Shown here: piece by piece, positions 6,202 through 24,150 of the stretch
Layout: every line of letters starts with the position of its first letter
Position numbering within the stretch: the stretch's first letter is position 1
NCBI GenBank assembly: GCA_017477125.1
Contig: JAFUXN010000042.1
Coordinates: 1 to 53,713 of the forward strand
DNA: 53,713 bases
Direction of reading: 5' to 3'
Origin: Selenomonadaceae bacterium
GTDB taxonomy: Bacteria > Bacillota > Negativicutes > Selenomonadales > Selenomonadaceae
Notes under the pieces: generated by a model
Database searches by the model: none
Told to the model about the DNA's origin: nothing
Seen by the model: only the letters and a program-made list of their open reading frames with translations
Made by a program: the position numbers and the translations under genes

Positions 6202-6705
6202 TTGAAACGCGCGACGTTGATGTTGATGCTGATGTTGTTGACGATATTCGGAACGGCGTCGGCGGAGGTGCCGCATTACCTCAACGATCGGGTGCTGATC
6301 TTGAGCGGCATGCATGGCGGAACGGCATGGTACCTCGATAAGAGCTCGGTGCTCGTCGAGATCGATGATCCTCCGGCGTACGTGATCACCTATCAACTGT
6401 TTCCCGCCCGATACGATTTGGAGACGGGAGAGATCATTCGAGTGTATGAGGCGCTGCAGGAAAAATATCTCTACAACGTCAAAGAGCATGAGATGCGCAA
6501 GTTTAACGGTACGGAGTGGGATTACATTCCGCCGGTCGGTCCCCTTGCCGAGACCGGTAACGAGTTCAGCGGAGAGATGGCGTTCTACATTGCTTTCGGC
6601 AAAAAATTTTACGGCGGTCGGCAATGGGTAGAGCACTCGACGGGTGAGATGCGCAATCCGAACTTCGGCGAGGAGATTTATGAGCGCGTCGACGATTCAT
6701 ATTGA
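6202..6705 (+). CDS. Secreted paralogue A of the RiPP locus, function unknown
   Basis: The start is TTG at 6202: GGAGG lies 8 nt upstream, and the resulting MKR start plus signal peptide matches the two paralogues at 7071 and 7642, whereas an upstream ATG (6178) would sit before the ribosome-binding site. 167 aa; signal peptide to about residue 22 (ASAEV). The mature part shares YLND-VLIL, AWYLDKSSV, FPARYD--TGE--RV, GEMA-YI and an EEIYERVD end with the paralogues. The fold may resemble small periplasmic or surface proteins of the Surface-adhesin E type, but I would not assign a function. Being inside the RiPP operon suggests a role in immunity, sensing or export; this is inference. Confidence 0.8.
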   Translation: MKRATLMLMLMLLTIFGTASAEVPHYLNDRVLILSGMHGGTAWYLDKSSVLVEIDDPPAYVITYQLFPARYDLETGEIIRVYEALQEKYLYNVKEHEMRKFNGTEWDYIPPVGPLAETGNEFSGEMAFYIAFGKKFYGGRQWVEHSTGEMRNPNFGEEIYERVDDSY

Positions 6706-6722
6706 GAGGCGGCGACGAATAA

Positions 6723-7055
6723 ATGAGTGCAACGGTAGAGTTCAAGGAGATCGAAAAGGGCGCGTGGCTGGTGTTGCAGGCGATCGGTCGTATCGATACG
6801 ACGACGGCGAAGTCGGCAGAGACGGCGGGACTGGCGGCGCTCGCAAAGACGACGAAGCTGGCGCTGGACATGTCGAAGCTCGAATACATCTCGAGCGCGG
6901 GTTTGAGAGTGCTGTTGAGGCTCGGCAAAACGTCGAAGCGCGGCAAGAAAATGTTCGTGCTGTGCGGGGTGGCGGGCATGGTCAAAGAGATACTCGAGGA
7001 CTCGGGGACTGATACGCTGTTTCAAATCTACGGGTCGTATAACGAATTGCAGTAA
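6723..7055 (+). CDS. STAS-domain anti-sigma-factor-antagonist-like protein
   Basis: A 110-aa single STAS domain of the SpoIIAA/RsbV size. The conserved phosphorylation region reads DMSKLEYISSAGLRVLL, with Ser57 and Ser58 at the site that an RsbW-type kinase phosphorylates. Family knowledge: the unphosphorylated form binds the kinase and releases its partner, and a SpoIIE/RsbU phosphatase resets it. Both other components are in this locus (kinase at 8120, phosphatase at 21678). It sits between two secreted paralogues, an unusual position for a partner-switch gene, and no sigma-factor gene is in the window, so the output is unknown. Confidence 0.92.
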   Translation: MSATVEFKEIEKGAWLVLQAIGRIDTTTAKSAETAGLAALAKTTKLALDMSKLEYISSAGLRVLLRLGKTSKRGKKMFVLCGVAGMVKEILEDSGTDTLFQIYGSYNELQ

Positions 7056-7070
7056 AGAAGGTGGTTTTAA

Positions 7071-7610
7071 ATGAAGCGTGTATTGATTGCAGTGTTGATG
7101 GTGTCGGCGCTGTTGCTTACGATCAGTCAGTCGGCGACGGCGAACGCGGAGGAAGTGATCCCCGAAGAATATCTCAACGGCGGCGTGCTGATCCTCGGCG
7201 AATACGGTGTCGGGCTGGCATGGTACCTCGATAGGAGCTCGGTGCGGATCGAGCAGGAAGGTCCGCCCCGGTATATCGTCTCGTTTCAAATGTTCCCGAC
7301 GCGGTACGACAGAAATACCGGTGAGACCACGCGCGTATTCGATGGGCACCGGGCGAAATGCATGTACGATGTCGAAAAAGATGCGATGTATTTTTTCAAT
7401 ACGGGATTTCAGCCTGTTGCGGATTGGGCGTATATCGATCCGGTCGGACCCGCCGGTGAGTCGCCGATCGATACCTTGGGCGAGATGGCGTGGTACATAC
7501 TCTATCAGAAACCGTTTTACGGCGGTCGCAAGTGGAGGGACGGCAACGGACAAATGCGTTGGTCGAATTACGGCGAAGAACTTTATCGGCGCATAGACAA
7601 TTCTTATTGA
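7071..7610 (+). CDS. Secreted paralogue B of the RiPP locus, function unknown
   Basis: 179 aa with an ATG preceded by GAAGGTGG. A signal peptide (MKR start, cleavage after about residue 26 in TANAEE) precedes a domain alignable over its whole length with the proteins at 6202 and 7642: LNGGVLILGEYG, AWYLDRSSVRIE, MFPTRYDRNTGETTRVF, DPVGPAGE, GEMAWYI, KPFYGGRKW and a final RIDNSY. No catalytic motif is visible. The three copies differ by many substitutions, so the duplications are not recent. Confidence 0.82.
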   Translation: MKRVLIAVLMVSALLLTISQSATANAEEVIPEEYLNGGVLILGEYGVGLAWYLDRSSVRIEQEGPPRYIVSFQMFPTRYDRNTGETTRVFDGHRAKCMYDVEKDAMYFFNTGFQPVADWAYIDPVGPAGESPIDTLGEMAWYILYQKPFYGGRKWRDGNGQMRWSNYGEELYRRIDNSY

Positions 7611-7641
7611 TTGGCAACAACATTCAAGGAGATCGATTAAC

Positions 7642-8130: not shown

Positions 8131-8599
8131 AAGTCAAGAGCTCATGCAGGCAAACGGTCGGATCGATTTGACTGACAACGATTGGAAAAAATTCCGCGCG
8201 GAGGAGGACGAATACGCCAACATTCGAGATTACATCATGGCTCGTGCGGAAGATGCGGGCATCGATCCGAAAAATCAATTGCGATTGGAGCTGGGCGTTG
8301 AGGAAGTCGTCATCAACGTGATGCACTACGCCTATGAGGACGGCGGCGATCTCTACGTTCGTACTTCGATCGACGACGGCAAATTTACGATTGAGCTCGT
8401 CGACCATGGGATTCCGTTCAATCCGTTGGAGAAGCATGACGAGCGTGCGGTCGACACGTCCGACATAGAGGATCGGAAGCTCGGCGGGTTCGGGATCGAG
8501 TTCATGCGCAAGAAATTTTCCAAGGTCGAATACAGCGATGAGCCGTTCATGGGCAAGCGCGCCAATCGATTGTCGATGACGTTTGAGCCGAAAGGCTGA
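8120..8599 (+). CDS. RsbW/SpoIIAB-like anti-sigma-factor serine kinase
   Basis: About 159 aa with a GHKL ATPase fold: N-box LELGVEEVVINVMHYAY, G1-type DHGIPFNP and a Gly-rich GGFGIEFMRK. Length and motifs match RsbW-family kinases, which phosphorylate STAS proteins and otherwise hold a partner inactive. The ATG at 8120 overlaps the previous stop. An ATG at 8144 preceded by AAGAG is an equally possible start, because neither has a strong ribosome-binding site. It lies immediately before the precursor peptide genes. Confidence 0.88.
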   Translation: MLIESQELMQANGRIDLTDNDWKKFRAEEDEYANIRDYIMARAEDAGIDPKNQLRLELGVEEVVINVMHYAYEDGGDLYVRTSIDDGKFTIELVDHGIPFNPLEKHDERAVDTSDIEDRKLGGFGIEFMRKKFSKVEYSDEPFMGKRANRLSMTFEPKG

Positions 8600-8631
8600 A
8601 CGATATAGAATTATTGATGAGGTGATTGTTA

Positions 8632-8958
8632 ATGACTGATGAAAGAGCCGAGAAAGTTAAAGCGCTCCTTGCCGACAAAAATTTCATGGCGAGCGCGCTT
8701 GAGCTTGAGACGCCCGAAGAAGTGCAAGAACTGTTTGCGTCGAAAGGCGTCGAGCTCTCCATCGAAGATGTCAAGGCACTGCGCGCGGCGATCCTGGCGA
8801 GGCTCGGCGGCGATGACGAGATGGACGAGGATCAGCTTGAGCAGGTTGCCGGCGGTGCCGGTTGGGACGCCGATGGCTTTTTTACCAATGTGAGTTACAA
8901 CGTTGATAACGCGGTCAATAACATTCGCGACGTGTTCACCAGCCGTCGTCGTTGGTAA
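8632..8958 (+). CDS. Nif11-type RiPP precursor peptide 1
   Basis: 108 aa; GAGGTG 9 nt upstream of the ATG decides the start. The first ~72 residues are a charged helical leader of the Nif11-like type (LADKNFMASAL, TPEEVQELFASKGVELS) ending in EMDEDQLEQVAGG, a double-glycine cleavage site for the C39 transporter at 13697. The predicted core is 34-35 residues starting AGWDADGF and ending SRRRW. It has no Cys, several Asn/Asp, two Trp and a C-terminal Arg-Arg-Arg-Trp. The leader end is nearly identical to that of precursor 2 while the cores differ, typical of a shared processing pathway. Confidence 0.92.
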   Translation: MTDERAEKVKALLADKNFMASALELETPEEVQELFASKGVELSIEDVKALRAAILARLGGDDEMDEDQLEQVAGGAGWDADGFFTNVSYNVDNAVNNIRDVFTSRRRW

Positions 8959-8987
8959 TAAATTTTTATAAGAGGAGGCTCATTTTC

Positions 8988-9323
8988 ATGAATGAGAATC
9001 AGAAGAAGTTTATGGCGTTGATGGAGGACGATGAGAAAATCCGCGAGCTGTTCAGCCAAGAAGACGCGGCGGCAGCTCAGAAGTGGCTTGCGGCGCAGGG
9101 CATCGAGCTCAGCATTGAGGAGCTCAACACATTCCGCGCAAAACTGCTCGCGAAGATGGAAGACAACGAGGAGATGGACGAGGATCAGCTCGAGCAGGTA
9201 GCCGGCGGTTCGGTTGAGAGCTGGCTCGACCAACACAATTTCGACGGTCCGCTTGCGAGAGCTTGGAAGTGGAAGAACGAGCACATCACCAAGCCGATTC
9301 ACAACTTCTTCCGTCGCTGGTAA
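8988..9323 (+). CDS. Nif11-type RiPP precursor peptide 2
   Basis: 111 aa from the ATG at 8988, preceded by a perfect AGAGGAGG at 9-nt spacing. The Nif11-like leader (QKKFMALMEDDEKIRELFS, then AAQGIELSIEELNTF) ends EEMDEDQLEQVAGG, the same junction as precursor 1. The 37-residue core begins SVESWLDQ, includes ARAWKWKN and ends FFRRW. There is no Cys, so lanthionine or sactionine rings are impossible. WKN fits the W-x-N motif of triceptide-type cyclophanes, but it is not shared by the other two cores; the shared element is the terminal R-x-W. Confidence 0.92.
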   Translation: MNENQKKFMALMEDDEKIRELFSQEDAAAAQKWLAAQGIELSIEELNTFRAKLLAKMEDNEEMDEDQLEQVAGGSVESWLDQHNFDGPLARAWKWKNEHITKPIHNFFRRW

Positions 9324-9358
9324 TCACTCAATCGAGATTCAAAGAATATGCAGGCAGG

Positions 9359-9408: not shown

Positions 9409-9442
9409 GTCGGCGGTCGATGAATGATCGGAGGTAAATGCG

Positions 9443-9592
9443 ATGAACGAAAAGCTGCAGAAGAAGTTCGCGGCGCAATCCGAGGACGGCGAGATGGACG
9501 ACGATCAGCTTGAGATGGTCGCGGGCGGCAGAAATATCTTCCAGAAGATCAACGATTTCTTGAATGATCCGTGGCGCGGGCGCACTTGGTGA
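9443..9592 (+). CDS. Small RiPP precursor peptide 3 (49 aa)
   Basis: A short gene with GGAGG 8 nt before the ATG. The 29-residue leader lacks the Nif11 body but keeps the junction MDDDQLEMVAGG, nearly the same as EMDEDQLEQVAGG in the two larger precursors. The 20-residue core begins RNIFQKIND and ends DPWRGRTW. It has no Cys and two Trp, and shares the terminal Arg-x-Trp with the other cores. It ends 15 nt before the radical SAM gene, past the hairpin, so it is probably made at the level of the enzymes. The minimal leader makes it useful for defining what the machinery recognises. Confidence 0.9.
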   Translation: MNEKLQKKFAAQSEDGEMDDDQLEMVAGGRNIFQKINDFLNDPWRGRTW

Positions 9593-9607
9593 TAAACAGT
9601 TCAGGTC

Positions 9608-11482: not shown

Positions 11483-12730
11483 TTGAAGAGATATTTTTTT
11501 GCGGGCTTGACGATGGTGCTGATCATCGTGGTCGGGATCATCTTGTACGGCGCTTGGCTCAATCGGGCGGGCGAGAATAAGATCACCGAACGCATGGCGG
11601 AACGAATGATCCCGTTGCAGGGCGCGGAAGCGAAGGTGCGCGAGATCAATCCGACGGTCAAGCTCGACACGGTCAATCTGTACTCGAACGAAATGACCGA
11701 TGCGATCGCGCTCATCGACGGCAGGATCACTTCGGTCAACGTGCAGAAGAATGATCAGGTGGCGCGCGGTCAAGTGCTGTTCAATCTCACCAATGAGCAG
11801 TATCCGTTGAAGATACGTCAGGCGGAGATCGACATTATGAAAGCCGAAAGCGAGATACTCAAAGCCGAGAATGATATCGTCAAGGCGGAGACGTACCTGG
11901 CGCGGGCGAAAAATGATTTCGGTCGTTACTCCCGATTGAGGGAGCACGATGCAACGACCGCCGAGCGCTACGATGAAGCGGAGGCGGCTTACAAAGAGGC
12001 GCAGGTCAATCTCAAAGTTGCGCACGTTCAGAGGGATCAGATGATCGCTCAAAAGGAATCGCTCAACGCTCAACGGGATCAGTTGATGCTCGAGAGCGCA
12101 CACAGTGAAGTCGCCGCCCCCATCGACGGCGAAATTTTAATTTTGTACAGGCAGATCGGATCGTACGTCACCGCCGGCACGCCGCTTGCACTCATAGGAG
12201 ATTTCCATCATTTATTCTTCTCGATGCCCGTCGACGACGAAGTGGCGCGTCGGTTCTCAACGGGCAATTCTGTTTCGCTCAACTTCAATCGGCGTGAGCT
12301 CACGAAGGTCTACGATACCGAATACGAGGCGGGCAACGCGGGAGCCAATCAAGAGTTCTCCGCGCGGATCGTCGACGTGTCTCCGTCGCTCGACGAGAAG
12401 GCAGCGATCCGAACGATCCTCTGGGAGGTCAACAACAGCGCGGGACTGCTCGAGCCTCAAACATATAACGGCGTGAAACTGCAATCGACATTGGCGCAAA
12501 AATGTTTGACGGTGCCGCTGACGGCGATGATCGATCCGTCCAACTCATCTGTGTTCGTGCTCAAGGACGACAACACTCTCGAGCGTCGAGCGATCGTGAC
12601 GGGCGTCGACGACGGCAATTATATCGAAGTGCGCTCGGGCTTGAGAGCGGGCGATGTGGTCGTTACGTCGGGCATGAGCGGACTCGACGAGGGCATGAAG
12701 GCGTCGGTCAAAGTAGAGGAGGGCGACTGA
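11483..12730 (+). CDS. Membrane fusion protein (HlyD/RND-type adaptor)
   Basis: 415 aa, starting at TTG 11483 with GGAGGTGG 8 nt upstream. One N-terminal membrane helix (residues 5-24), a split lipoyl domain (GRITSVNVQKNDQVARGQVL, then SEVAAPIDGEIL), a long alpha-hairpin coiled coil (about 115-215) and a beta-barrel/membrane-proximal region ending in GLRAGDVVVTSGMSGL. This adaptor bridges an inner-membrane transporter and a TolC-type channel (here at 19346). A second, different adaptor follows directly, so each ABC transporter may have its own. Confidence 0.9.
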   Translation: MKRYFFAGLTMVLIIVVGIILYGAWLNRAGENKITERMAERMIPLQGAEAKVREINPTVKLDTVNLYSNEMTDAIALIDGRITSVNVQKNDQVARGQVLFNLTNEQYPLKIRQAEIDIMKAESEILKAENDIVKAETYLARAKNDFGRYSRLREHDATTAERYDEAEAAYKEAQVNLKVAHVQRDQMIAQKESLNAQRDQLMLESAHSEVAAPIDGEILILYRQIGSYVTAGTPLALIGDFHHLFFSMPVDDEVARRFSTGNSVSLNFNRRELTKVYDTEYEAGNAGANQEFSARIVDVSPSLDEKAAIRTILWEVNNSAGLLEPQTYNGVKLQSTLAQKCLTVPLTAMIDPSNSSVFVLKDDNTLERRAIVTGVDDGNYIEVRSGLRAGDVVVTSGMSGLDEGMKASVKVEEGD

Positions 12731-13692
12731 TGGCAGCAGACAACTCCGAGATATTCAGCAAGGAAGCGCTCGACAAACTCCGTTCGCCCGAACGCCTCGA
12801 CATGATGTTACCAATCACAACACCAATCGGCTGGATCAGTCTGGCAGCGATTGGCGTTTTGTTATTTTCAATCCTGTTGTGGTCGATCTTCGGGGCGTTC
12901 ACGGTCAAAGCGGACGGCATGGGGTTGATACTCGACAGCGCGGGCGTGGTGAACATCTCGCACATCTCGAGCGGCAAGGTCGATAAGATTTTCGTCAAGA
13001 CGGGTTCGCATGTCCGACGCGGCGATCTGATCGCGCAGATCGAGCAAGCGGATCAATCGGCTGATACGCGCATGGCGAAATTCGGCATGGGCTTGGCGCA
13101 AAACGATCGCGATGCCATGGAGCGCGTCTATCAGTACGGCGCGAAGAAGCAGCAACAGAACGTGGCGGAGGATATTTACAGCGATTATGACGGGATCATC
13201 GACGAGGTGCTGGTTGAGCGCGGGAGCATTATATCGAACGGCATGCCGATCTGCACGATCCGCTTGACGCAGAACCGCGACGAGCTCACGGGCGTGCTTT
13301 ACGTTCCCGTCGACAAGGGCAAGAGGATCGAGCCGGGCATGAGCATTCAGCTGGCGCCAAACGGCGTCGACACCTCTCAATCGGGAAGTCTGATCGGCGT
13401 GGTGCGATCGGTGTCGCAATATCCCGTGTCGGCTCAAGTGATCGAACGCGGGCTCGGCAATGCTCAACTCGCTCAATGGATTCAGCAATCGCAAAACTCC
13501 GCGCTGATGGAAGTCAAATTTGATCTGGTCAAGGACGAGACGTCGGAGTCGGGTTACCTGTGGACTTCCGTCGTCGGCGAGCACAAACCGATCACCGCCG
13601 GCAGTTTTTGCACGGGATCGATCATCATCGATCGCACGCCGCCCATCGAGCGCGTCTTCTACAAAGTCAGTCAATGGTTGAGAAGCAGGTGA
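12730..13692 (+). CDS. NHLM-type secretion adaptor (HlyD family)
   Basis: 320 aa; ATG at 12730 overlaps the previous stop (TGATG). A short cytosolic N-terminus with KLRSPERLDMMLPITTPIGW precedes one membrane helix ending LLWSIFGAF, then a lipoyl half-motif (GKVDKIFVKTGSHVRRGDLI) and a barrel. This N-terminal pattern is typical of the secretion protein of NHLM (NHLP/Nif11 leader microcin) export systems. It lacks the long coiled coil of the adaptor upstream, so it probably cannot reach an outer-membrane channel by itself; I infer that it works with the C39 transporter. Confidence 0.9.
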   Translation: MAADNSEIFSKEALDKLRSPERLDMMLPITTPIGWISLAAIGVLLFSILLWSIFGAFTVKADGMGLILDSAGVVNISHISSGKVDKIFVKTGSHVRRGDLIAQIEQADQSADTRMAKFGMGLAQNDRDAMERVYQYGAKKQQQNVAEDIYSDYDGIIDEVLVERGSIISNGMPICTIRLTQNRDELTGVLYVPVDKGKRIEPGMSIQLAPNGVDTSQSGSLIGVVRSVSQYPVSAQVIERGLGNAQLAQWIQQSQNSALMEVKFDLVKDETSESGYLWTSVVGEHKPITAGSFCTGSIIIDRTPPIERVFYKVSQWLRSR

Positions 13693-13696: not shown

Positions 13697-15931
13697 ATGA
13701 GTGTTATCGACAAGATCAAAGCGCTGCTCAATCGAAACAAATGCCGCGTGAAGGTGCCGACGATCCTGCAGATGGAGGCGACGGAGTGCGGGGCGGCGTC
13801 GCTGGCGATGGTGCTGGCGCACTTCGGTCAATGGATACCGCTCGAGAAGATGCGGCAGGAGTGCGGCGTCAATCGCGACGGGTCGAAAGCTAACTGCGTA
13901 CTCAAAGCCGCGCGGAACAGATTTTGCGAGGCGAAGGGCTATCGATGGAACGCCGACAAGCTCTTGACGAAAACCGTTGAGGACTTCCCGCTGATCATAC
14001 ATTGGGAGTTCAATCATTTCGTGGTGCTCGAGGGGATCGAGAACGGCATTGCTTATCTCAACGATCCCGCGATGGGTCGTCGGCAGGTGCCGTGGGAGGA
14101 GTTCCGCACCTCATACACCGGCGTTTCGTTGCGCGTGAAGCCGACGGATCAATTTAAGCCCGAGGGACATCGATACAGCATCGTTCGAGCGATCGCCGCC
14201 AAGCTCATGCAGGACAAGTGGGCGATGATCTTCGTCATGCTGATCGGATTCGGCATGATCTTCCCGGGGCTGGCGTCTCCCGTCTTCAATCAAATCTTCC
14301 TCGACGATATATTGACCGGCAAGCATGCCGATTGGATGACGAAACTTTGTATCGCGATGAGCGTGTCGCTGGTGCTGAGCGGCGTGATGACATGGATGAG
14401 ATCGGTCGTGCTGACGCGTTGGCAGGAGAAGTTGACGCTCGCCGACTCATCGAGTTTCTTCTGGCATGTGTTGAGACTGCCGATCCAATTCTTTCAACAG
14501 AGGTTCGCGGCGGAGATCGCCTCGCGCATCACGTTCAACGAAGCGGTCGCGGGAGTGCTGTCGAGCTCGGCGGCGACCGCAGTTCTCGACTTCTTCATCG
14601 CGCTGTTCTATCTGCTGCTGCTCCTCCAATACAGCGTGACGTTGACGATCATCGGCGTGGGGTTCAGCCTGATCGATCTGGCGGTGTTCGCGCTGATGCG
14701 TCGCAAGCTCACCGACATGAACATGAAGATTCAACAGGATCAGGGCAAAGAGTACGGCACGGCGATGAACGGCTTGATGATGATCGAAACGATCAAAGCC
14801 AACGGCAACGAGACGGATTTCTTCAGCAAGTGGGCGGGCTATCGCGCGAAGGTATTGATCAGCACGCAGGAGGTTCAGATGTGGTCGCTGACGGCATCGA
14901 TCCTGCCGACGTTGATGAGCGGAATGAACTCGGCGATCATCATGACGGTCGGCGGCTTTTCGATCATGGAAGGCGTGATGACCGCCGGCATTTTCATGGC
15001 GTTTCAAAATCTGATGGGGTCGTTCCAAGAGCCGTTCAACAAACTGATCGGTTTGGGCTCGACGCTGCAATCGACGGAAATGCAGATGCAGAGGCTCGAT
15101 GATGTCAAGCGCTACGACATCGATCGATTGAATTACCCCGGCGATGATCAACGGACGACGTTTGAAGGCGATCGGTTGTCGGGCGAGCTCGAGTTCCGCG
15201 ATATCAATTTCGGTTACAGTCCGCTTGAGCCGCCCTTGCTTGAGAATTTTAATATGCATCTGCAGCCCGGGCGTTGGGTGGCGGTGGTCGGGTTCAGCGG
15301 CTCGGGGAAGTCGACGCTGGCAAAAATATTGACGGGGCTTTATGAGGAGTGGTCGGGCGAAGTGTTGTTCGACGGCGTGCCGCGCAAACAGATTCCGCAC
15401 TCGGTGATCGTCAACTCGATCGCGTCGGTCGACCAAGACATCTTTCAGATCACCGGCACGGTTCGAGAGAATATCTCGCTGTTCGATGAATCAATCCGTC
15501 GGGGCGATATCATACAGGCGGCGAAGGACGCTTGCATTCATGAGGACATCCTTCGGCTCGACGGAGGTTACGAGGCGCAAGTTGCGGAGGGCGGCTTGAA
15601 TTTCAGCGGCGGTCAACGTCAGCGGCTTGAGATCGCTCGGGCATTGGCGGCAAATCCTTCGCTGTTGATCCTCGACGAGGCGACGAGTGCGCTCGATCCC
15701 ATGACCGAACAGATCGTGCTCGAGAACATACGTCGGCGCGGGTGCTCGTGTTTCATCGTGGCGCATCGATTGTCGACGATCAGAGACGCCGACGAGATCA
15801 TCGTATTGGATCGCGGCAAGGTGGTCGAGCGCGGCACGCATCGGGAGATGATGCAGCACGACGGACCTTATCATCGATTGATCGCCGAGAGCAACAAGGA
15901 CAGCGAAAACGAAGAATCCCTCAACGATTAG
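13697..15931 (+). CDS. NHLM-type ABC transporter with C39 peptidase domain
   Basis: 744 aa with the PCAT architecture. The C39 peptidase (1-145) has the catalytic Cys31 in TECGAAS, His107 in NHFVVL and Asp123 in NDP. The membrane domain (about 165-455) follows, then the ATPase: Walker A GFSGSGKST, signature FSGGQRQRLE, Walker B LLILDEATSA and the His-loop VAHRLST. It should cleave the precursors after VAGG and export the cores across the inner membrane. It follows the adaptor gene by 4 nt. The first of the paired transporters usual in NHLM loci. Confidence 0.95.
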   Translation: MSVIDKIKALLNRNKCRVKVPTILQMEATECGAASLAMVLAHFGQWIPLEKMRQECGVNRDGSKANCVLKAARNRFCEAKGYRWNADKLLTKTVEDFPLIIHWEFNHFVVLEGIENGIAYLNDPAMGRRQVPWEEFRTSYTGVSLRVKPTDQFKPEGHRYSIVRAIAAKLMQDKWAMIFVMLIGFGMIFPGLASPVFNQIFLDDILTGKHADWMTKLCIAMSVSLVLSGVMTWMRSVVLTRWQEKLTLADSSSFFWHVLRLPIQFFQQRFAAEIASRITFNEAVAGVLSSSAATAVLDFFIALFYLLLLLQYSVTLTIIGVGFSLIDLAVFALMRRKLTDMNMKIQQDQGKEYGTAMNGLMMIETIKANGNETDFFSKWAGYRAKVLISTQEVQMWSLTASILPTLMSGMNSAIIMTVGGFSIMEGVMTAGIFMAFQNLMGSFQEPFNKLIGLGSTLQSTEMQMQRLDDVKRYDIDRLNYPGDDQRTTFEGDRLSGELEFRDINFGYSPLEPPLLENFNMHLQPGRWVAVVGFSGSGKSTLAKILTGLYEEWSGEVLFDGVPRKQIPHSVIVNSIASVDQDIFQITGTVRENISLFDESIRRGDIIQAAKDACIHEDILRLDGGYEAQVAEGGLNFSGGQRQRLEIARALAANPSLLILDEATSALDPMTEQIVLENIRRRGCSCFIVAHRLSTIRDADEIIVLDRGKVVERGTHREMMQHDGPYHRLIAESNKDSENEESLND

Positions 15932-15944: not shown

Positions 15945-18623
15945 TTGAGATTGACAGCAGGACAGCGATATCGATTGACGGAGCCGGACTCGTTTGCGCT
16001 GATCAGGAGCGGCAAGCTCGAGGCGTACGCCGTCACTCAACGCAAAGCCTCGTTCCGACAAATATTTTTGATGACGCTCGAGCAGAACACCGCCGCATAT
16101 CCTTCGATGGACGAGTTCGGGCAGATCGATGTGATGCTCTACGCGGTCGAGGACTCGGAGATCGAAATGCTTGATTTCTCCGCGCTCGACCCTCAACAAA
16201 ATTATCAACTCATGAGCCGTTGGTTCGCCGAGCTGATCAAATTGCCGTGGCTGCGTCTGCTTGCCGACAAGGGCGACGACGTACTTCAAACTTGGGTCGA
16301 CGGCTCCGCGCTGAGTGATTCTCTCGACGACAACGATGCCTTGACGTTCGACTTTGAAGACAATCAATCGACGTTCTCGATGCTGTTGGGCATTCGTTTC
16401 CAAGCGGAGGACAAGAAACTTTCAAAGCGTCTCGCCGTCCGCAATCAACATCAGAAGCATTTGATCTCGACGGCGATCGACAGTCTGCTCGGGCGCGACA
16501 GTCCGATCGGCTCGGGCGTCGGCGAAGAGGGCAGCAGCCTCGAGCACACCGCATTCATCGTGAGCGTGGCGGCAAAGGCGCTCGGCATGCCGACCAACAA
16601 CATCAAACTCTCGGCGGAGATCGTTCGCAAGCTCGATCAGATCGGGATCATACGTCGGCTGGTGCAGAAGGCGAACATGCAATTGCGCTTGATCACTCTC
16701 GTGCCCGATTGGTTCACCAAGGACAGCGGCGTGATGCTCGGCTACTACGGCGAGAAGAAGGAGCTCGCGGCGATCGTTCCCGCCGACGTTGATCGATACA
16801 AACTGATCACCGCCAAGCAACCCGAAGGCATTGTCGTCGATGCCGCCGTCGCCGCGCAGATCGACAACAGCGCATTCGTGTGTTATGCCGGCTTCCCCGC
16901 GCGCAAGCTCGGCGTCATGGACTTATTAAAATTCATGTTCAATCAATGTTGGCGCGTCGACTATCGAACGATCGTGTTCGCGAGTTTCGTCGCGGGGCTC
17001 ATACCGCTCATCACGCCGATCATCACCGAATCGATCTTCGCCGACATCATTCCGATACTCGATCGGCAAGGGCTGGCGACGGTCACGCAGGTCTCGATCG
17101 TTTCGAGCTTTACGTTGGCGGCGATCTCGATCGTGCGATCGGTGGCGGTGTTGAGGATCACCACGCACCTCGACATGGCGACGGAGGCGGCGTTGTGGAG
17201 TCGGCTGTTGACCTTGCCGACCAAATTCTTCCGTCGTTTTCAATCGGGCGAACTGGCTCAACGCATGGGCGGCTTGCAAGCGATCAAAGAGCTCATCAGC
17301 GGCGAGTTCGTCTCGACGGTCTTCAACATCCTGTTCTCGTTCTGGAGCCTGATGCTGATGTGCTGGTACAGCATGAAGTTGACGGCGACGGCGTTCGCGA
17401 TCTGGTTTGTCTATTGCGCGATCATGATTCTGATCTACCGTCGGGTTGTCGGCTTCCAAACGAATTTGATCGAGGCGAAGAACAAGACGGCGGGCATCGT
17501 GCAACAGATATTCACGGGGCTGCCGAAGTTTCGTATCCAAGGGGCGGAGGAGCAGGCATATTACCTTTGGGCGAAGGCGTTCGGCGACGAATGGAAATGG
17601 AATAAGCGGCTGCGTTGGCAAAACAATTACAGCTCGATCATCAGCGGCATGCAACCGATGCTGTTGACGATGATCCTCTACTATGTGGCATTCAGCTCGA
17701 CGCAAGACCCGAGCGGCGGCGGGATCGGTTACGCGCAGTTCATCGCGTTCAGCGCGGCGTTCACGAGTTTCAATGCGACGGTCAACTCGTTCATACCGTT
17801 GATCGGACAGATCTTTTCGATCAAGCCGCACATTGAAAACCTTCGACCGATCCTTGAGGCTGAGCCCGAGGTCGCCGAGGATCGGATCGATGCCGACGTG
17901 TTGAGCGGAGCGATTGAAGTCAATCACATCACGTTCGCCTACAACGAGAACCTGCCCGACGTCCTTCACGACGTGAGCTTTCGGATAGCGGCGGGCGAGA
18001 ATGTGGCGATCGTCGGCAAGAGCGGTTGCGGCAAGTCGACGCTGATCAGATTGCTGTTGGGATTCGAGGAGCCAAAGCAAGGCGCGGTGTACTATGACGG
18101 GCAAGACCTTGCGGAGTTGAGCTTGCCGTCGGTGCGATCGCAAATGGGCGTGGTACTTCAGAACGGGCAGTTGATGAGCGGCGACATCTTTACGAACATC
18201 GTTGGGACAACGGCGTTGACGATGCAGGACGCATGGGACGCGGCAGAGGCAGCGGGCATCGCCGACGACATTCGCAAGATGCCGATGGGCATGCAGACTG
18301 TGATCAGTGAAGGGTCGTCGAACATAAGCGGCGGGCAGCGACAGAGGATATTGATCGCTCGAGCGTTGGCGGCGAAGCCGAGCATTTTGATCTTCGACGA
18401 GGCGACGAGTGCGCTCGACAATCGGACGCAAGCGATCGTCACGGAGAGTTTAAACAAGCGGCACGTCACGAGGATCGTGGTGGCGCATCGACTGTCGACG
18501 ATCAAGGATTGCGATCGGATATTGGTGATGGATCGCGGACGGCTGGTCGAGAGCGGCAGCTTTGATGAGCTCGTCGAGCAGGGCGGGCTGTTCGCGGGAT
18601 TGGTGAAAAGGCAGGTGGCTTGA
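15945..18623 (+). CDS. NHLM-type ABC transporter permease/ATPase, second subunit
   Basis: 892 aa from TTG 15945 (GAGGTG 8 nt upstream). The N-terminal ~320 residues contain no C39 peptidase but a regulatory-looking region that begins LTEPDSFALIRSGKLEAYAV, a cyclic-nucleotide-binding-like beta-roll start. Membrane domain about 330-600; ATPase domain with Walker A GKSGCGKST, signature ISGGQRQRIL and Walker B ILIFDEATSA. This is the peptidase-free partner found beside the C39 transporter in NHLM systems. The two may form a heterodimer or export different substrates. Confidence 0.93.
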   Translation: MRLTAGQRYRLTEPDSFALIRSGKLEAYAVTQRKASFRQIFLMTLEQNTAAYPSMDEFGQIDVMLYAVEDSEIEMLDFSALDPQQNYQLMSRWFAELIKLPWLRLLADKGDDVLQTWVDGSALSDSLDDNDALTFDFEDNQSTFSMLLGIRFQAEDKKLSKRLAVRNQHQKHLISTAIDSLLGRDSPIGSGVGEEGSSLEHTAFIVSVAAKALGMPTNNIKLSAEIVRKLDQIGIIRRLVQKANMQLRLITLVPDWFTKDSGVMLGYYGEKKELAAIVPADVDRYKLITAKQPEGIVVDAAVAAQIDNSAFVCYAGFPARKLGVMDLLKFMFNQCWRVDYRTIVFASFVAGLIPLITPIITESIFADIIPILDRQGLATVTQVSIVSSFTLAAISIVRSVAVLRITTHLDMATEAALWSRLLTLPTKFFRRFQSGELAQRMGGLQAIKELISGEFVSTVFNILFSFWSLMLMCWYSMKLTATAFAIWFVYCAIMILIYRRVVGFQTNLIEAKNKTAGIVQQIFTGLPKFRIQGAEEQAYYLWAKAFGDEWKWNKRLRWQNNYSSIISGMQPMLLTMILYYVAFSSTQDPSGGGIGYAQFIAFSAAFTSFNATVNSFIPLIGQIFSIKPHIENLRPILEAEPEVAEDRIDADVLSGAIEVNHITFAYNENLPDVLHDVSFRIAAGENVAIVGKSGCGKSTLIRLLLGFEEPKQGAVYYDGQDLAELSLPSVRSQMGVVLQNGQLMSGDIFTNIVGTTALTMQDAWDAAEAAGIADDIRKMPMGMQTVISEGSSNISGGQRQRILIARALAAKPSILIFDEATSALDNRTQAIVTESLNKRHVTRIVVAHRLSTIKDCDRILVMDRGRLVESGSFDELVEQGGLFAGLVKRQVA

Positions 18624-18624: not shown

Positions 18625-19356
18625 ATGGATTTCTTGAAACATCATTACGAATTGCCGTCGGCGCTCCCGACATTGCCCATGCCCGATGAGCCCTCTGCCG
18701 ACTTCACTCAGCTGAAAGATTTTTTGGGCGACGCGGTCAAAGTGTCGTCGGCGGCGACGTTGGGCGGACGCATCTCCGTTATCGAGACGTTCGACCACAA
18801 TGATTTTCTGATCGCCGACATGATTTTGAGCGGGCGCGACGAGATCAGGCAATTGCCGTTGACGGTCAACGCGTTCACCATCGCCAAAAAACGTTATCGG
18901 GTGATCCTCATAAATCGAGCGCCTTACAGCAATGTGCCCGCGTCGCGCATGGGCTTGAACGATGATGAGTGGCTCGAGAAGTCTCGCGTGATCCGATTGC
19001 ATCACGAGTGCGCGCATTACGAGACGTTGAGGATATTCGGCGGCATGAAGAATCACCCGCTCGATGAGATACTCGCCGACGCCGCAGGACAGCTCGCCGC
19101 CTTCGGGGACTTCCGCGCGGATCGTCAACGGATATTTTTCGGATTGAAGGGAGATCAATGCGACGGTCGGTTGAGCTTCCATTGCAAGCAGTTGACGACG
19201 GACGAGCAGAGGGAAGTTTATAAAGCGGTCGACGAGGCGCTTGACCTTCTCGAGGCTCCGATCAATGCGGCGCCCGATCATTTTGCTCGGCTGAAGTTGA
19301 TAGCATGTCGAAGCATCGAAGACGTGTTGGGAGGGAGGCATCAACGTGCGGATTAG
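18625..19356 (+). CDS. HExxH protein, putative zinc peptidase of the RiPP locus
   Basis: 243 aa, no signal peptide or membrane segment. The central motif is HHECAHY: His127-Glu128-x-x-His131 is a zincin signature. Seventeen residues after His131 comes DE (Asp147-Glu148) in LDEILAD, a plausible third metal ligand as in gluzincins. The combination HHEC-HY...N-LDE-IAD feels like a recurring small family near peptide exporters, but I cannot name it. The C39 domain already removes the leader, so this protein could trim the core or degrade leaders, or it may be a non-peptidase metal protein. It is tightly packed between transporter and channel genes. Confidence 0.72.
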   Translation: MDFLKHHYELPSALPTLPMPDEPSADFTQLKDFLGDAVKVSSAATLGGRISVIETFDHNDFLIADMILSGRDEIRQLPLTVNAFTIAKKRYRVILINRAPYSNVPASRMGLNDDEWLEKSRVIRLHHECAHYETLRIFGGMKNHPLDEILADAAGQLAAFGDFRADRQRIFFGLKGDQCDGRLSFHCKQLTTDEQREVYKAVDEALDLLEAPINAAPDHFARLKLIACRSIEDVLGGRHQRAD

Positions 19357-20797
19357 AAAATTGTCGGCGCTGATCGTCGGCGGGCTGTTGAGCATGTCGT
19401 TGATGGGATCGCCGACGGCGGACGCGATGGAAACCGTTCAGATCGATCTGCGTCGAAGCATCGAGCTCGCTCTTCAAAACAATCGGGACATCGAGCAGTC
19501 GGCATATGATCGGGAGTCGGCGCGTTGGGCGCACTCTCAAGCGCGTCGAACGATGGGACCGCGGCTGACGTGGAGCTCGTCGGCGATGCACATAGGCGGG
19601 CGCGACTATGCGAGCTACCGCGAATATCATGACGTGTTCGGCGACGCTTATCCCTCGTATGACAACGAATTTACGAACGCGATCGGGATCGAGATGCCGC
19701 TCTATACCGGCGGCAATCAGGAACATCAGATCGACTCGACGCGATATCGGATCAACGCGGCGGACCTCACGCTCGAGAACACGCGGCAGGAGATCAAATA
19801 TCGAACGACGGCGGCTTATTACCAACTTCTTCAACGTCGAGCGCTGATCACTGTCGAGCAGGAGGCGGTCAACACTCTGCAGAAGCATCTCGAGCACGTG
19901 CAGATCAATTATGAGACGGGGACGGTCGCAAAGTCTGACGTGTTGGCATCGAAGGTGCAGCTTGCCGATCGACAACAGGCGCTCGTGACTGCCGAGGGCG
20001 ATTACAGCAATGCGATGGCTGATCTCAACAATCTGATCGGGTTGCCGGTCACGACGTTGCTGTTGGTCGATGACGAGTTGCGTTATGAGCATTATGATCT
20101 GACTGCCGACGAGTGCATTGAGTATGCGATGAGGAATCGCCCCGACGGGATCGCGGCGGAGTATGCGATCAAGCAATCGGAGCACACGATGAAGGCGGCG
20201 AAGTCGGGATATCGTCCGAGCGTCAATGCGGTCGTCAACAAAAATATTGCGGGCGAGGGCTCCTTCAATCAGGATCACAGCGGCTCGTGGAACGCGGGCT
20301 TGCAGATGTCGTGGTCGGTGTTCGACAACGGAGTGACGTCGGCGCAGGTGCACGAGGCTCAATCCGAACTCGAGCGCGTTCAATCGCAAGCGGCTCAACT
20401 CAAGGAGCGCATTCAGCTCGAGGTGTGCAAGGCTTATACCGATCTGATCGCTGCCGAGAAGAACATCTCGACGACCGCCGCCGCGGTTGAGCTTGCCGCG
20501 GAGGATTACTTCATCGCTCAATTGAGGTACGTTGAGGGCGTCGACACCAACCTTGCGGTGATGGACGCGCAGGAGAAGCTCACCGAGGCGAAGACCAATT
20601 ACTATAACTCTCTGTACAACTACAATATCGCGAAGGCGGCGCTCGATAAGGCGATGGGCATTCCCGTCAATCTCAACGTGCCTGTGTACGTTCGATCGGA
20701 GCAGGCAGGCAAGTCGTCGGCGCGGGCGTTGGAAGATGCGGCGCTCGAGCTCGACAGCGAAATCGTATTGGATCAACCGTTTGAGGAGGGCGAATGA
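19346..20797 (+). CDS. TolC-type outer-membrane efflux protein
   Basis: 483 aa from GTG 19346, preceded by GGGAGGGAGG. Signal peptide to about residue 27 (ADAME). Two repeated OEP halves: the first starts DLRRSIELALQNNRDIEQS, the second TADECIEYAMRNRPDGIAAEYA, each with long amphipathic helices rich in Ala, Gln and Glu (coiled-coil barrel). It provides the outer-membrane exit for the exporters upstream and confirms a diderm cell. The start overlaps the HExxH gene by 11 nt, so it is part of the operon rather than a housekeeping copy. Confidence 0.93.
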   Translation: MRIRKLSALIVGGLLSMSLMGSPTADAMETVQIDLRRSIELALQNNRDIEQSAYDRESARWAHSQARRTMGPRLTWSSSAMHIGGRDYASYREYHDVFGDAYPSYDNEFTNAIGIEMPLYTGGNQEHQIDSTRYRINAADLTLENTRQEIKYRTTAAYYQLLQRRALITVEQEAVNTLQKHLEHVQINYETGTVAKSDVLASKVQLADRQQALVTAEGDYSNAMADLNNLIGLPVTTLLLVDDELRYEHYDLTADECIEYAMRNRPDGIAAEYAIKQSEHTMKAAKSGYRPSVNAVVNKNIAGEGSFNQDHSGSWNAGLQMSWSVFDNGVTSAQVHEAQSELERVQSQAAQLKERIQLEVCKAYTDLIAAEKNISTTAAAVELAAEDYFIAQLRYVEGVDTNLAVMDAQEKLTEAKTNYYNSLYNYNIAKAALDKAMGIPVNLNVPVYVRSEQAGKSSARALEDAALELDSEIVLDQPFEEGE

Positions 20798-21666
20798 TGA
20801 TCCCGACCATGCTCATCGACGAGCACAACGAAGCATTCTATGCATGGCGATTGTTCATCGATCAAAAATTTATTGAGCCGACGGGGAATTATCTGCTGCA
20901 CATCGATCACCACGACGACATGGAGTGCGGCGGCTACGATTGGGATTTTAATAAGCCGATCGCTTCTCTCGACTCCGCGCGGAACTTCCTCGACAGATGT
21001 TTGGGGATCGCGGACTTCATCACGCCGGCGTTGTGGTATCAGACGTTCTCGACCGTCCACATCATAAAAAATTTGGTGCCGAAGGCATTGAACGTTGAGC
21101 GGCGGTTCGTTCGGCTCGACGGCGATCAAGTGCTGCTGTTCGGGCTTTACATTCCGTTCATCCATGCGCCCGAGAAGGACAATCCCGACAGTCGATATCA
21201 CTTCTTCGATCGGATCGACGGCGGGCTCAACGATGATGATCAATTTCCGTCCGAGGGCGTGGTGCTCGATATCGATCTCGATTACTTCTGTTGGGATAAC
21301 TCGTTGAAGAGCGCGCCGCCCAAACGCATGGAGATCACTCGAGAGGCGTTCGACGAATACATGTCCGATCGCAATCACCCGTTTCGGATCGTGCCGCGGA
21401 AATTTTTCGTGCCGCGGGAGCTCGACGGTCGATATTGGCTCGTGTACGAAGAGCACTCGGAGCGAAACAAGTTGCCGACGGAGGATCGGATCATCAAGCG
21501 CATCGATCGATTGATCAAATACCTGCTCGACTGCTCGATCAAACCGAAGGCGATCGATATCTGCCGCTCATCGTACTCGGGATATCTTCCGAAGGAGCGC
21601 GCGGCGTTCGTTGAGAAAAATTTTGTGTCGAGGCTCGCCGCCGCCTTCGAATTAAAATTCATCTGA
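20794..21666 (+). CDS. UPF0489 family protein, probable peptide arginase
   Basis: 290 aa. The metal-binding signatures of the arginase/deacetylase-like UPF0489 family are clear: HIDHHDDM (His36 to Met43) and LDIDLDYF (Asp159, Asp161, Asp163), plus a C-terminal ICRSSYSGYLP. Characterised members in RiPP clusters (OspR type) hydrolyse Arg side chains to ornithine with release of urea, using Mn2+. Every predicted core here carries Arg near a C-terminal Trp, so Arg to Orn conversion there is a direct hypothesis. Its start overlaps the TolC stop by 4 nt (ATGA), tying it to the operon. Family assignment is strong; activity on these peptides is inferred. Confidence 0.85.
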   Translation: MMIPTMLIDEHNEAFYAWRLFIDQKFIEPTGNYLLHIDHHDDMECGGYDWDFNKPIASLDSARNFLDRCLGIADFITPALWYQTFSTVHIIKNLVPKALNVERRFVRLDGDQVLLFGLYIPFIHAPEKDNPDSRYHFFDRIDGGLNDDDQFPSEGVVLDIDLDYFCWDNSLKSAPPKRMEITREAFDEYMSDRNHPFRIVPRKFFVPRELDGRYWLVYEEHSERNKLPTEDRIIKRIDRLIKYLLDCSIKPKAIDICRSSYSGYLPKERAAFVEKNFVSRLAAAFELKFI

Positions 21667-21677
21667 GGAGATTGACT

Positions 21678-23408
21678 GTGAAACTTTTGTTGAGACATAC
21701 CGGCATCGCCGCATTTTGTTTTGCCGCGGGACTTATCATCTTCCAATACGTTTTCGGGCTGCAGAATACCAACGTCAGAATGTCATCGTTCCTCGCGCCG
21801 CTGTTCGGGATCATGTGGGGGCTGTCGGGCTCGATCGGAGTGGGCGTCGGCAATTTCGTTTCCGATCTGTTCAATCCGAATTTCGAATGGGATGCCATCA
21901 CGATCATCTTCTACGTCTTCGGCTCGATCGGAAATTTTTTGATGGCTTACGGCACTTATCGATTGTGGCACTCGTTCATGCTCGGGCGCGATGAAAATCC
22001 GTTCGCCATCAGCCTCAAAAACATGATTCGATACATCGTGATCCAATTCGGCGTGGTGCTCACCACCGGCATTTATTTCACGGTCGTTCCCGTCGTGATG
22101 TTCCCCGACGCTCATTTGACGTTGAGCCGCTTCTCGACGATCGTCATCAACAACTTCGATGTCAACGTGCTGTTCGGTCTGCCGATCCTGTTGATGATGA
22201 TGAGCAGCGGTTTCGAGTTCGAGCAATCGAAGGCGATCCATTGGCAGGACGAGAATGCCCTCCGTAAACCGATCTATTATCGGATCACGCAAGGCTTCTG
22301 CATCTTCATGCTCCTGCTCACGCTGATCATGTCGGTGTACGCTTTCGCGACGGTCGAGGGCGATTACTCGTCGAACGCGATCTGGTTGAGCTTCTACGAG
22401 AACACCTTCTTGGTCTTGCATTTCACCTTGACGATCCAATTGATTTTGATTTGGTACATCGAACAGAACGTGATCCGACCGTTGAGCGACATAACCAAGA
22501 CGGCGACCAAGCTCACGCATTCCGATCTCGAGCGCGAAAAAATTTCGTTCGAGGTCGTGCGCTCGGGCGACGAGATCGAATTGCTGTCGCAAACTCTTCA
22601 TAAGATGCTCGACAGCATTTATAAGTACATCGACAACCTGCGTCAAACGCTGTCGGAGAGGGCGCGCACCCAAACGCAATTGGAGATCGCAAAGAACATT
22701 CAAGCGGCGCTGTTGCCTTCGCCCGACATCATCAACGACGAGACAGATCGGATATCGGTTGAAGCGATCATGCAACCGGCGCTGATGATCGGCGGAGACT
22801 TCTACGATCTCAAGATGCTCGACGAGGATCACGTGGTGCTGGTGGTGTCCGACATATCGGATAAGGGAATCCCCGCGTCGCTGTTCATGACGATCACGCA
22901 CACGTTGATCCACCACAAGATCAGCAGCGCCGACATATCATTGACGCAAATCTTTGCGGAGACGAACAATCAGCTTTGCGAGAACAACGATACCGAGATG
23001 TTCGCGACGGCGGTGGCGGTGCTCTACGAGATATCGACGGGGCGAATGACGTACGTCAATGCGGGACATACCAGCCCGTTGATCGTTCACCGCGACGGCT
23101 CGTTCGAATACCTCAAGAAGCGCTCGGGAGCGATGCTCGGCTCGATGGAGGATATTCCCTATAAAAAACTTGAGACGCAATTGACGGTCGGCGACATCTT
23201 GATCCTCTACTCGGACGGAGTGACGGAGGCGTTAAACGAGCAGGAAGATTTTTATTTGGAAGCTCGATTGGCGGCGCTGGTATCTCGATTGGCGATCGAA
23301 GGGCAAAAAAATATCGCCGACGCGATCCTTCATGATATCAAGGAGTTCGCGGGCGCGCATGATCAATCGGACGACATAACGATCGTTACGATGATGGTGA
23401 AGGAGTGA
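21678..23408 (+). CDS. Membrane-bound SpoIIE/RsbU-type PP2C phosphatase
   Basis: 576 aa; GTG 21678 chosen because AGGAG lies 7 nt upstream. Residues 1-270 hold about seven membrane segments, an unassigned sensor region resembling small-molecule uptake S-components. A HAMP-like linker (IRPLSDITKTATKL) and a coiled coil (about 300-340) follow, then the PPM phosphatase: AKNIQAALLPS, GGDFYD, VSDISDKGIPASL, YVNAGHTSPL, YSDGVTEA and DDITIV with the metal-binding Asp residues. It should dephosphorylate the STAS protein at 6723 and so counteract the kinase at 8120, giving membrane-sensed control. Confidence 0.92.
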   Translation: MKLLLRHTGIAAFCFAAGLIIFQYVFGLQNTNVRMSSFLAPLFGIMWGLSGSIGVGVGNFVSDLFNPNFEWDAITIIFYVFGSIGNFLMAYGTYRLWHSFMLGRDENPFAISLKNMIRYIVIQFGVVLTTGIYFTVVPVVMFPDAHLTLSRFSTIVINNFDVNVLFGLPILLMMMSSGFEFEQSKAIHWQDENALRKPIYYRITQGFCIFMLLLTLIMSVYAFATVEGDYSSNAIWLSFYENTFLVLHFTLTIQLILIWYIEQNVIRPLSDITKTATKLTHSDLEREKISFEVVRSGDEIELLSQTLHKMLDSIYKYIDNLRQTLSERARTQTQLEIAKNIQAALLPSPDIINDETDRISVEAIMQPALMIGGDFYDLKMLDEDHVVLVVSDISDKGIPASLFMTITHTLIHHKISSADISLTQIFAETNNQLCENNDTEMFATAVAVLYEISTGRMTYVNAGHTSPLIVHRDGSFEYLKKRSGAMLGSMEDIPYKKLETQLTVGDILILYSDGVTEALNEQEDFYLEARLAALVSRLAIEGQKNIADAILHDIKEFAGAHDQSDDITIVTMMVKE

Positions 23409-23412
23409 TGGC

Positions 23413-24150
23413 ATGCGGTTGGCATTTGTTGACGATGTTGAATCGGATTTATGCAATGCGGCGTCGTTCGTGACGCACTATATTGAGGAGAATCACGTTG
23501 AGCTGTCGAATAACCTGGAGGTGACGAAGTACCTCAGCCCGTTGAAATTTGTGGAGGAATTTGCCGCCGATCGGTTTGATATGATCGTGCTCGACATCTT
23601 CATGAAAGAAATGAACGGTGTGCAGGTGGCTCAACACATTCGTTCGCTCGATCGGGATTGCATCATCATCTTCCTGACGAGCACCGATGCATTTCTGCTC
23701 GAGGGTTATCTGGTGTTTGCGTCGGGATATTTCATCAAGCCGATCGGTGAGCACGAGAAGGATTTTCGGAAGACGTTTGACTTCATACTGCCGAGGCTGT
23801 TGAAGACGCAGCAATCGATCGTGTTTCCGGTACTGAAGTCGAACGATATTGAAGTGCCGTACGAAAACATATTGTACTTGGACATCAACGAGAAGCACAG
23901 GGTGCGGGTGGTGACGCGGTCGCAGGAAATCATCTCGACGATGAGCTATGAGGAGTTTGCGCGTCGGCTGTTGACAGACAAGAGATTTTTGGAGTGCCAC
24001 TATCGGATCATCGTCAACATGGATCGGATTGTGGACATGCTTGATGAAGATTTTGTAGTGGAGGGCGGGCTGAAGGTGCCGATGAGCCACCGCAAGCGCA
24101 AGGAGGCTAAATGGAAATATATGCAATACCTTGCGCATCGCGACGATTGA
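23413..24150 (+). CDS. LytTR-family response regulator
   Basis: 245 aa. A receiver domain (1-125) with the acidic pair in FVDDVE, phospho-acceptor Asp in IVLDIFMKEMNG, switch Thr in FLTST and Lys in FIKPIG. A LytTR DNA-binding domain (about 135-235) follows with ILYLDINEKHRV and RIIVNMDRIVDM. LytTR regulators pair with GHKL kinases, and the only such kinases here (4705 and 3817) lie at the other end of the RiPP locus on the opposite strand. It is the last gene before the hairpin array. I infer that it controls the RiPP operon; I did not find a clear pair of LytTR-type direct repeats in 6034-6200. Confidence 0.92.
   Translation: MRLAFVDDVESDLCNAASFVTHYIEENHVELSNNLEVTKYLSPLKFVEEFAADRFDMIVLDIFMKEMNGVQVAQHIRSLDRDCIIIFLTSTDAFLLEGYLVFASGYFIKPIGEHEKDFRKTFDFILPRLLKTQQSIVFPVLKSNDIEVPYENILYLDINEKHRVRVVTRSQEIISTMSYEEFARRLLTDKRFLECHYRIIVNMDRIVDMLDEDFVVEGGLKVPMSHRKRKEAKWKYMQYLAHRDD

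Follow-up and report, generated by a model that had tools for sequence, protein, structure and literature searches.

Peptide arginases of the UPF0489 type hydrolyze Arg to ornithine in the precursors of ribosomally synthesized and post-translationally modified peptides (RiPPs), and arginases paired with Nif11-type (N11P) precursors are already published (PMC12703449). DeaR is among the arginases verified in Escherichia coli (PMC10373908). The landornamide precursor is a substrate of a radical S-adenosylmethionine (SAM) epimerase and a peptide arginase, in a system that also has a lanthionine synthetase (PMC10028609). The radical SAM enzyme MftC oxidatively decarboxylates the C-terminal Tyr of MftA (PMC5682303). 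Here, we analyzed a RiPP locus in a 53,713-nucleotide stretch of a Selenomonadaceae bacterium, probably an inhabitant of the rumen (hereafter the window; contig JAFUXN010000042.1 of GCA_017477125.1, whose 154 contigs total 2.9 Mb). The locus probably belongs to a RiPP family whose hallmark is the C-terminus, in which a SPASM radical SAM enzyme acts at a terminal Trp, a UPF0489 arginase makes the adjacent ornithine, and NHLM exporters and TolC export the product.

A first-pass annotation, made by a model from the letters of the window, had called the enzyme combination undescribed. This was too broad, because a radical SAM epimerase and a peptide arginase likewise act on one precursor in landornamide (OspA/OspR/OspD; PMC10028609). 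Arginases with Nif11-type precursors, a pairing that the window shares with the N11P-associated enzymes, are also already known, as is NHLM export. The window differs from landornamide in its SPASM radical SAM enzyme and Trp-ended cores, and no lanthionine synthetase was found among the genes scanned. An NHLP leader is a trait of landornamide-type proteusins; the NHLP model TIGR03793 gave 14.4 bits on window precursor A2 (cut-off 50.9) and was not listed for A1 and A3, so that the window precursors do not show this trait. FlmR/OhkR arginases resemble the window enzyme in their full-length match to NF052474 and in a conserved C-terminal precursor motif, but the window arginase scores 173.5 bits against a cut-off of 350, and its motif is Arg-Trp instead of DD(I/V)LF. 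The name DeaR suggests an arginase of Desulfotomaculum aeronauticum, an organism link that we infer; the single arginase of a D. aeronauticus record (L079) lies within a locus of the Trp-ended family. SuiB, which forms the Lys-Trp crosslink of streptide, is 17% identical to the window radical SAM enzyme over the aligned part; the window family lacks a fixed Lys-Trp spacing and, unlike streptide, has NHLM export and an arginase. MftC is likewise a SPASM radical SAM enzyme working at an aromatic C-terminus, but the match of the window protein to the MftC model TIGR03962 is weak (65.7 bits, cut-off 265), and we know of no arginase or double-glycine (GG) leader export in mycofactocin. Finally, NHLM-exported loci with mostly Cys-rich cores in the same bacteria share exporters, adaptors, STAS/RsbW/SpoIIE genes, and similar leaders with the window; their cores are short and, as described below, rarely Trp-ended, and tblastn detected no arginase in the loci fetched. 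No account of the Trp-ended family or of its two-gene co-variation was found among the open-access titles and abstract openings listed, which is no proof of absence.

The C-terminal tryptophan and the radical SAM enzyme

Relatives were collected with an alignment of five radical SAM proteins in one scan of a named genome collection. The scan yielded 31 loci from Bacillota, Spirochaetota, Synergistota, and one Acidobacteriota assembly, with hosts in Selenomonadaceae, Lachnospiraceae, Syntrophomonadaceae, Sporomusaceae, the kin of Desulfotomaculum, Spirochaetaceae, Synergistaceae, and others. Close pairs were kept unmerged (L063/L065, L073/L082, and L059/L062, the last judged by its cores), and L075 and L083 come from one assembly. 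Precursors were picked by leader alone, with a model seeded with the GG-cut leaders of the window and L055 and iterated over the open reading frames (ORFs) of these loci.

Trp was the last residue in 59 of the 63 precursors with a leader score of at least 50 bits. Elsewhere in the cores it occupied 38 of 2339 positions, and the cores were hypervariable, often Gly-rich and hydrophobic, with lengths down to 10-14 residues. The same leader model was applied to eleven loci of a sister radical SAM clade (about 30% identity) and gave 27 matches in eight loci, only one of them Trp-ended, although these were weaker matches (17-41 bits, one without a core). Terminal Trp thus goes with this radical SAM clade. 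The prediction was borne out in the held-out genome G651 (one contig, 99% complete, from a later phylum draw), where both precursors end in Trp. Freedom from Cys, which the first-pass annotation had seen, is true of all three window cores, so that Cys donors for a sactipeptide or ranthipeptide are lacking there, but it is not a family trait (Cys in 15 of 64 Trp-ended cores).

The window radical SAM enzyme carries CX3CX2C at C311/C315/C318 and further Cys residues at C533, C551, C588, C591, C597, C600, and C618, which we take to be the SPASM pattern. The SPASM assignment of the first pass is upheld on these residues; the Pfam SPASM model matched 10 of 15 members and left the window protein unmatched. 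Structure matches cover mainly residues 256-621. For the N-terminal domain, Pfam and PDB sequence searches gave only chance-level hits, with no recognizable match to a RiPP recognition element (PqqD-like). This domain is a separate gene in L072, L073, L074, L076, L081, L082, and G651, which suggests that it is a precursor-binding partner. A plasmid search with the enzyme returned 237 records, none covering 80% of the query, and the eight matches listed were PqqE.

Three kinds of reaction were considered for this enzyme. A SuiB/PqqE-like C-C bond between the Trp indole and an upstream side chain (-2 Da), perhaps that of a neighboring ornithine or Lys, is a tentative possibility. The fold is shared, but a shared fold proves no reaction, and other maturases score almost as high; moreover, there is no constant partner position before the Trp, with Gly, Pro, Ser, Thr, and Ala among the residues at -2 to -4. 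An MftC-like oxidative decarboxylation of the C-terminal residue (-46 Da), which would leave a C-terminal indole-enamide, seems somewhat unlikely as a specific assignment. It would fit a Trp that is strictly last while the rest varies, even in the shortest cores, and the activity of MftC on MftA (PMC5682303) offers a precedent. The TIGR03962 and PqqE models also fit the catalytic part, far under cut-off, but the mycofactocin match is as weak as stated above, and a free C-terminus may instead serve binding or activity. C-terminal chemistry and a crosslink, for which the first pass named a loss of 2 Da as the sign, are about equally likely. Epimerization or another alteration of inner core residues, as by EpeE or OspD, with the Trp as a recognition tag or an export or killing feature, also seems somewhat unlikely: no common motif was seen within the cores as an enzyme target, and Trp tracks the radical SAM clade and not the exporter, the sister loci having mostly the same exporter families.

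Two further kinds of ORF were observed in the family loci. At L061:5175 (+), an ORF of 30 residues from Met joins a Nif11-type leader start straight to VKSRW, without GG, and looks like an internal deletion with both ends kept. A second precursor type, with cores containing Y-G-V or Y-A-V and a leader that by eye looks like the nitrile-hydratase type, lies beside a second radical SAM gene in L073, L074, L079, L080, L082, and L084; the second radical SAM protein of L073 combines a SPASM domain with TPR repeats.

Arginine beside the tryptophan and the peptide arginase

All three published UPF0489 motifs are present in the window arginase (DHHDD, DEHNEAF with D in place of the first E, and LDIDLDYF); the first pass had noted both metal motifs. 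H11, D38, H40, D42, D159, D161, and D163 are invariant in 15/15 aligned family arginases, and all 15 match NF052474. Searched against PDB sequences at E 0.01, a profile of these 15 proteins hit OspR (8brp) and nothing else, in a full-length match with E 1.4e-75.

An iterated profile found the arginase in 19 of the 31 loci. For the 12 loci without it or cut, the whole assembly was searched. No arginase was detected in the assemblies of L064, L066, L067, L069, L074, and L080 (counted as without) or in those of L062, L068, and L076 (set aside), and for L054 and L075 it lay on another contig. Left out of the Arg counts were L061, with its truncated ORF, and two loci on cut contigs, L062 and L076. 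Trp-ended cores were retained even where the leader scored low (L066, one of L070, L080, and window A3).

Arg stood at -2 or -3 in 44/44 cores from 16 loci with the arginase versus 1/17 from seven loci without it (G651 included), and within the last six residues in 44/44 versus 4/17. Lys at -2 was found in none of the 44 and in seven of the 17, from L064 (2), L069 (4), and L074 (1). Permutation by locus gave a p-value of 1e-5 (17 loci with the arginase, L061 included, versus 6 without, G651 excluded); cores from one locus are not independent, and the p-value of the -2/-3 rule is descriptive because the rule was set after the G651 result. On a tree of the radical SAM catalytic domain (30 rows), the arginase-less label requires five changes, and well-supported branches force at least four of these; the branches of L066 and L080 are long. 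Locus G+C (0.42-0.61 without and 0.36-0.57 with the arginase) does not explain the Arg difference. The Arg-Trp ending attributed to the window cores applies to two of the three precursors; the other ends in Arg-Thr-Trp. Together, the metal motifs, the OspR match, and this co-variation make the predicted formation of ornithine from core Arg, as proposed in the first pass, well supported.

It is most improbable that the cores stay unmodified in a plain multi-peptide bacteriocin operon while the radical SAM enzyme and the arginase use other substrates. A class IIb bacteriocin model is over its cut-off in 2/8 precursors, but core Arg co-varies with the arginase, as terminal Trp does with the radical SAM clade, and leaders are Arg-poor where the arginase is present.

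Besides the weaker leader matches of the sister-clade control, several points weigh against a C-terminus modified by both enzymes. Action of the radical SAM enzyme on the Trp, as opposed to a mere need for Trp in recognition, is our inference. Four of the 63 precursors, in L056, L063, L065, and L067, do not end in Trp, and leader matches below 50 bits in the same loci, many of which are other precursor types, are Trp-ended in 5 of 21 cases. The window arginase misses the NF052474 cut-off. Absence of an arginase is weak evidence because the assemblies are mostly metagenome-assembled genomes, and two loci count as positive through a 33-residue fragment where the contig breaks off (L059) or a gene on another contig (L054). 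No arginase was found in the assemblies of L076 (PTRW) and L062 (three cores ending in RRW or GRW), in which 4/4 Trp-ended cores hold Arg in the last six residues, and 2/6 cores of L069 have Arg near the end despite the lack of an arginase. In G651, whose genome gave no arginase match, the cores carry Arg at -4 and -6 and none at -2/-3. Our first rule, by which arginase-less loci have Arg-free last six residues, failed on this held-out genome and was given up.

A gene of about 245-255 residues, unmatched in Pfam, lies between the arginase and radical SAM catalytic genes in L073 (8986-9720) and L079 (9196-9960), and ORFs of similar size directly precede the radical SAM catalytic gene in L074, L077, L081, and L084.

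The window locus and its relatives

The operon named in the first pass spans about 8632-21666 on the + strand and is flanked by regulators at both ends (Table 1). Its three double-glycine precursors are present, each with a leader ending ...QLE(Q/M)VAGG before the core. For A1, the ORF was called at 8626-8958, and the ATG at 8632 is the likelier start. The Nif11-leader precursor model TIGR03798 (cut-off 32.3) was not reached by A1 (24.0 bits) and A2 (31.4 bits) and did not match A3; 4/8 precursors of relatives passed it (39.2, 40.3, 44.1, and 37.7 bits). Profile matches confirmed the C39 and second NHLM transporters, the two adaptors, and TolC on one strand, and an exported RiPP of a diderm member of Bacillota, as first suggested, is supported. 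Overlaps of 4-11 nt had been reported for the operon; they are found at two junctions, DUF7005/TolC (11 nt) and TolC/arginase (4 nt), whereas all remaining junctions range from a 1-nt overlap to a 119-nt gap.

Table 1. Features of the locus and its flanks, with window coordinates.
Feature	Position	Strand	Match or remark
Precursor A1, Nif11-like leader, core AGWDADGFFTNVSYNVDNAVNNIRDVFTSRRRW	8632..8958	+	family leader model 81.9 bits
Precursor A2, core end NFFRRW	8988..9323	+	family leader model 73.1 bits
Precursor A3, short leader, core RNIFQKINDFLNDPWRGRTW	9443..9592	+	family leader model 31.6 bits
SPASM radical SAM enzyme; catalytic part about 296-623, N-terminal domain about 290 residues	9608..11479	+	PF04055 E 3.4e-20
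Resistance-nodulation-division (RND)-type periplasmic adaptor	11483..12730	+	TIGR01730 160 bits, cut-off 94.9
NHLM HlyD-type adaptor	12730..13692	+	TIGR03794 231 bits, cut-off 156
NHLM exporter 1 with C39 peptidase, cleavage after GG expected	13697..15931	+	TIGR03796 978 bits, cut-off 853; PF03412 E 1e-28
NHLM exporter 2	15945..18623	+	TIGR03797 763 bits, cut-off 709
DUF7005 protein, HECAH and DEILAD	18625..19356	+	PF22541 105 bits, cut-off 27
TolC outer-membrane channel	19346..20797	+	PF02321 E 3.3e-61
UPF0489 peptide arginase	20794..21666	+	PF12640 37.0 bits, cut-off 27
STAS anti-anti-sigma protein, co-directional regulator	6723..7055	+	PF01740 E 1.1e-14
RsbW-like HATPase, regulator, start codon uncertain	8144..8599	+	PF13581 E 3.7e-19
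Membrane SpoIIE/SiaA-like phosphatase, regulator	21672..23408	+	PF07228 E 1.1e-46; SiaA model 70 bits, under cut-off
LytTR response regulator	23413..24150	+	PF00072, PF04397
Divergent GHKL sensor kinase	4705..6033	-	PF14501 E 7.5e-14
Shorter GHKL-kinase paralogue	3817-4704		no PF14501 match; divergent pair also in G025
Protein with signal-like N-terminus (by eye), first of three paralogues	6178..6705	+	matches no family
Two further secreted-looking paralogues (by eye)	7071-7610, 7642-8130		G025 has one copy in all

Genome G025, a second species of the genus, keeps the window gene order except for two of the three secreted paralogues and has eight precursors. The order there is sensor kinases, secreted protein, STAS, RsbW-like, precursors, radical SAM enzyme, adaptors, exporters, DUF7005, TolC, arginase, SpoIIE phosphatase, and LytTR. 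Identities to the window are 59% for the radical SAM enzyme, 69% and 88% for the adaptors, 86% and 78% for the exporters, 47% for DUF7005, 70% for TolC, and 58% for the arginase. Because this order recurs in a second species, the locus is not a chance assembly. In G239, from another genus of the same family, the order is kept from the precursors to the arginase, and DUF7005 is found not at that place but elsewhere in the genome.

The HExxH protein of the first-pass annotation is the DUF7005 protein. The H, E, and H of HExxH and the D, E, A, and D of DExxAD are invariant in 11 aligned DUF7005 sequences including the window's, and we take this signature to resemble that of a gluzincin. A metallohydrolase function is a guess, and the protein may be an accessory of the locus. 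Its place in the set, as first proposed, was weakened by its distribution. DUF7005 occurs in 10 of the 31 RiPP family loci. A model of the DUF7005 family detected it in 5 of 299 phylum-draw genomes, the window's own included, and in 33 of 151 genomes sampled from the bacterial family. Window proteins served as tblastn queries against 20 regions fetched around DUF7005 copies, several of which are truncated at contig ends; 16 of these regions gave no NHLM exporter or adaptor. The other four comprise three clear cases (L097, L099, and L105) and a single 32% ABC match (L091). Four more regions (L089, L102, L103, and L107) lack an exporter but have TolC, regulators, or a radical SAM gene of the sister clade. 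Among 15 DUF7005 regions, one neighbor cluster, besides DUF7005 and an antisense frame, reached three regions (L091, L093, and L095). Copies also lie elsewhere with no RiPP genes nearby, and DUF7005 was therefore not counted as system-specific. It had also been tried as a defining part, and a first genome scan with it gave no relatives.

DUF7005 is very unlikely to be a HExxH hydroxylase of the alpha-ketoglutarate type, as ChlB, BpmH, and PflC are. The HExxH motif is present, and such hydroxylases accompany radical SAM RiPPs (PMC12636437), but none of nine DUF7005 members matched a HEXXH hydroxylase model at E<=1. Matches of the nine members to hydroxylase or peptidase models stayed at chance level, with one M91 hit at E 0.083. 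The signature instead looks gluzincin-like, and an O2-dependent enzyme is unlikely in anaerobes, which most hosts of DUF7005 are. The name DUF7005 was not found in the open-access papers searched. Just before DUF7005, a small ORF ending in LD(L/M)VAGG and a short polar tail was seen in L072, L073, L079, L081, L082, and L084; in L073, it directly follows an extracytoplasmic function (ECF) sigma factor gene.

A partner-switching set (STAS, RsbW-like kinase, and SpoIIE/SiaA-like phosphatase; 6723-8599 and 21672-23408) encloses the RiPP genes, and such a set also lies near a different radical SAM gene in G268 and G277, loci of the same bacterial family. Right after the LytTR gene, a tandem array at 24229-25336 has a unit of about 174 bp in 6.4 copies with 76% matches, and no gene was assigned to it. 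In the Lachnospiraceae locus L057 (5255-7911), a gene with an LPG_synthase_C (MprF-type) domain occurs together with one for a MatE protein whose tail weakly resembles a HATPase, and NUDIX genes occur in L061 and L071.

Proposed pathway and significance

In the proposed pathway, each precursor would pair a GG-ended Nif11-type leader with a core that is hypervariable but keeps its terminal Trp as the constant feature. The SPASM enzyme and its N-terminal domain may recognize these precursors and act at or beside the Trp, by a crosslink or oxidative decarboxylation. The arginase would hydrolyze the Arg beside the Trp to ornithine and urea, as its homologues and the co-variation indicate. Judging from their families, the C39 domain would cleave behind GG, and the core would cross both membranes by way of the NHLM exporters, the two adaptors, and TolC. 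The LytTR and partner-switching module probably governs expression. The exported peptide is probably cationic, bacteriocin-like, and directed at membranes.

More broadly, and only tentatively, these loci may represent a widespread RiPP class with a radically altered C-terminal Trp beside a side-chain amine. The amine would be ornithine made from Arg in most cases and Lys in some arginase-less lineages, and the radical SAM enzyme would decarboxylate the Trp or join it to a neighbor. To our knowledge, such an altered Trp terminus is not known from other RiPPs. The analysis defines a testable RiPP family with a C-terminal two-letter code, in which Trp tracks one radical SAM clade and Arg tracks the arginase, and it ties the SPASM reaction of this clade to one residue. 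The family provides natural pairs with and without the arginase and adds new peptide arginases that could be used to install ornithine. The sequence record of a named strain, Desulforamulus aeronauticus DSM 10349, includes one of the loci, and this strain may thus be open to culture and mass spectrometry.

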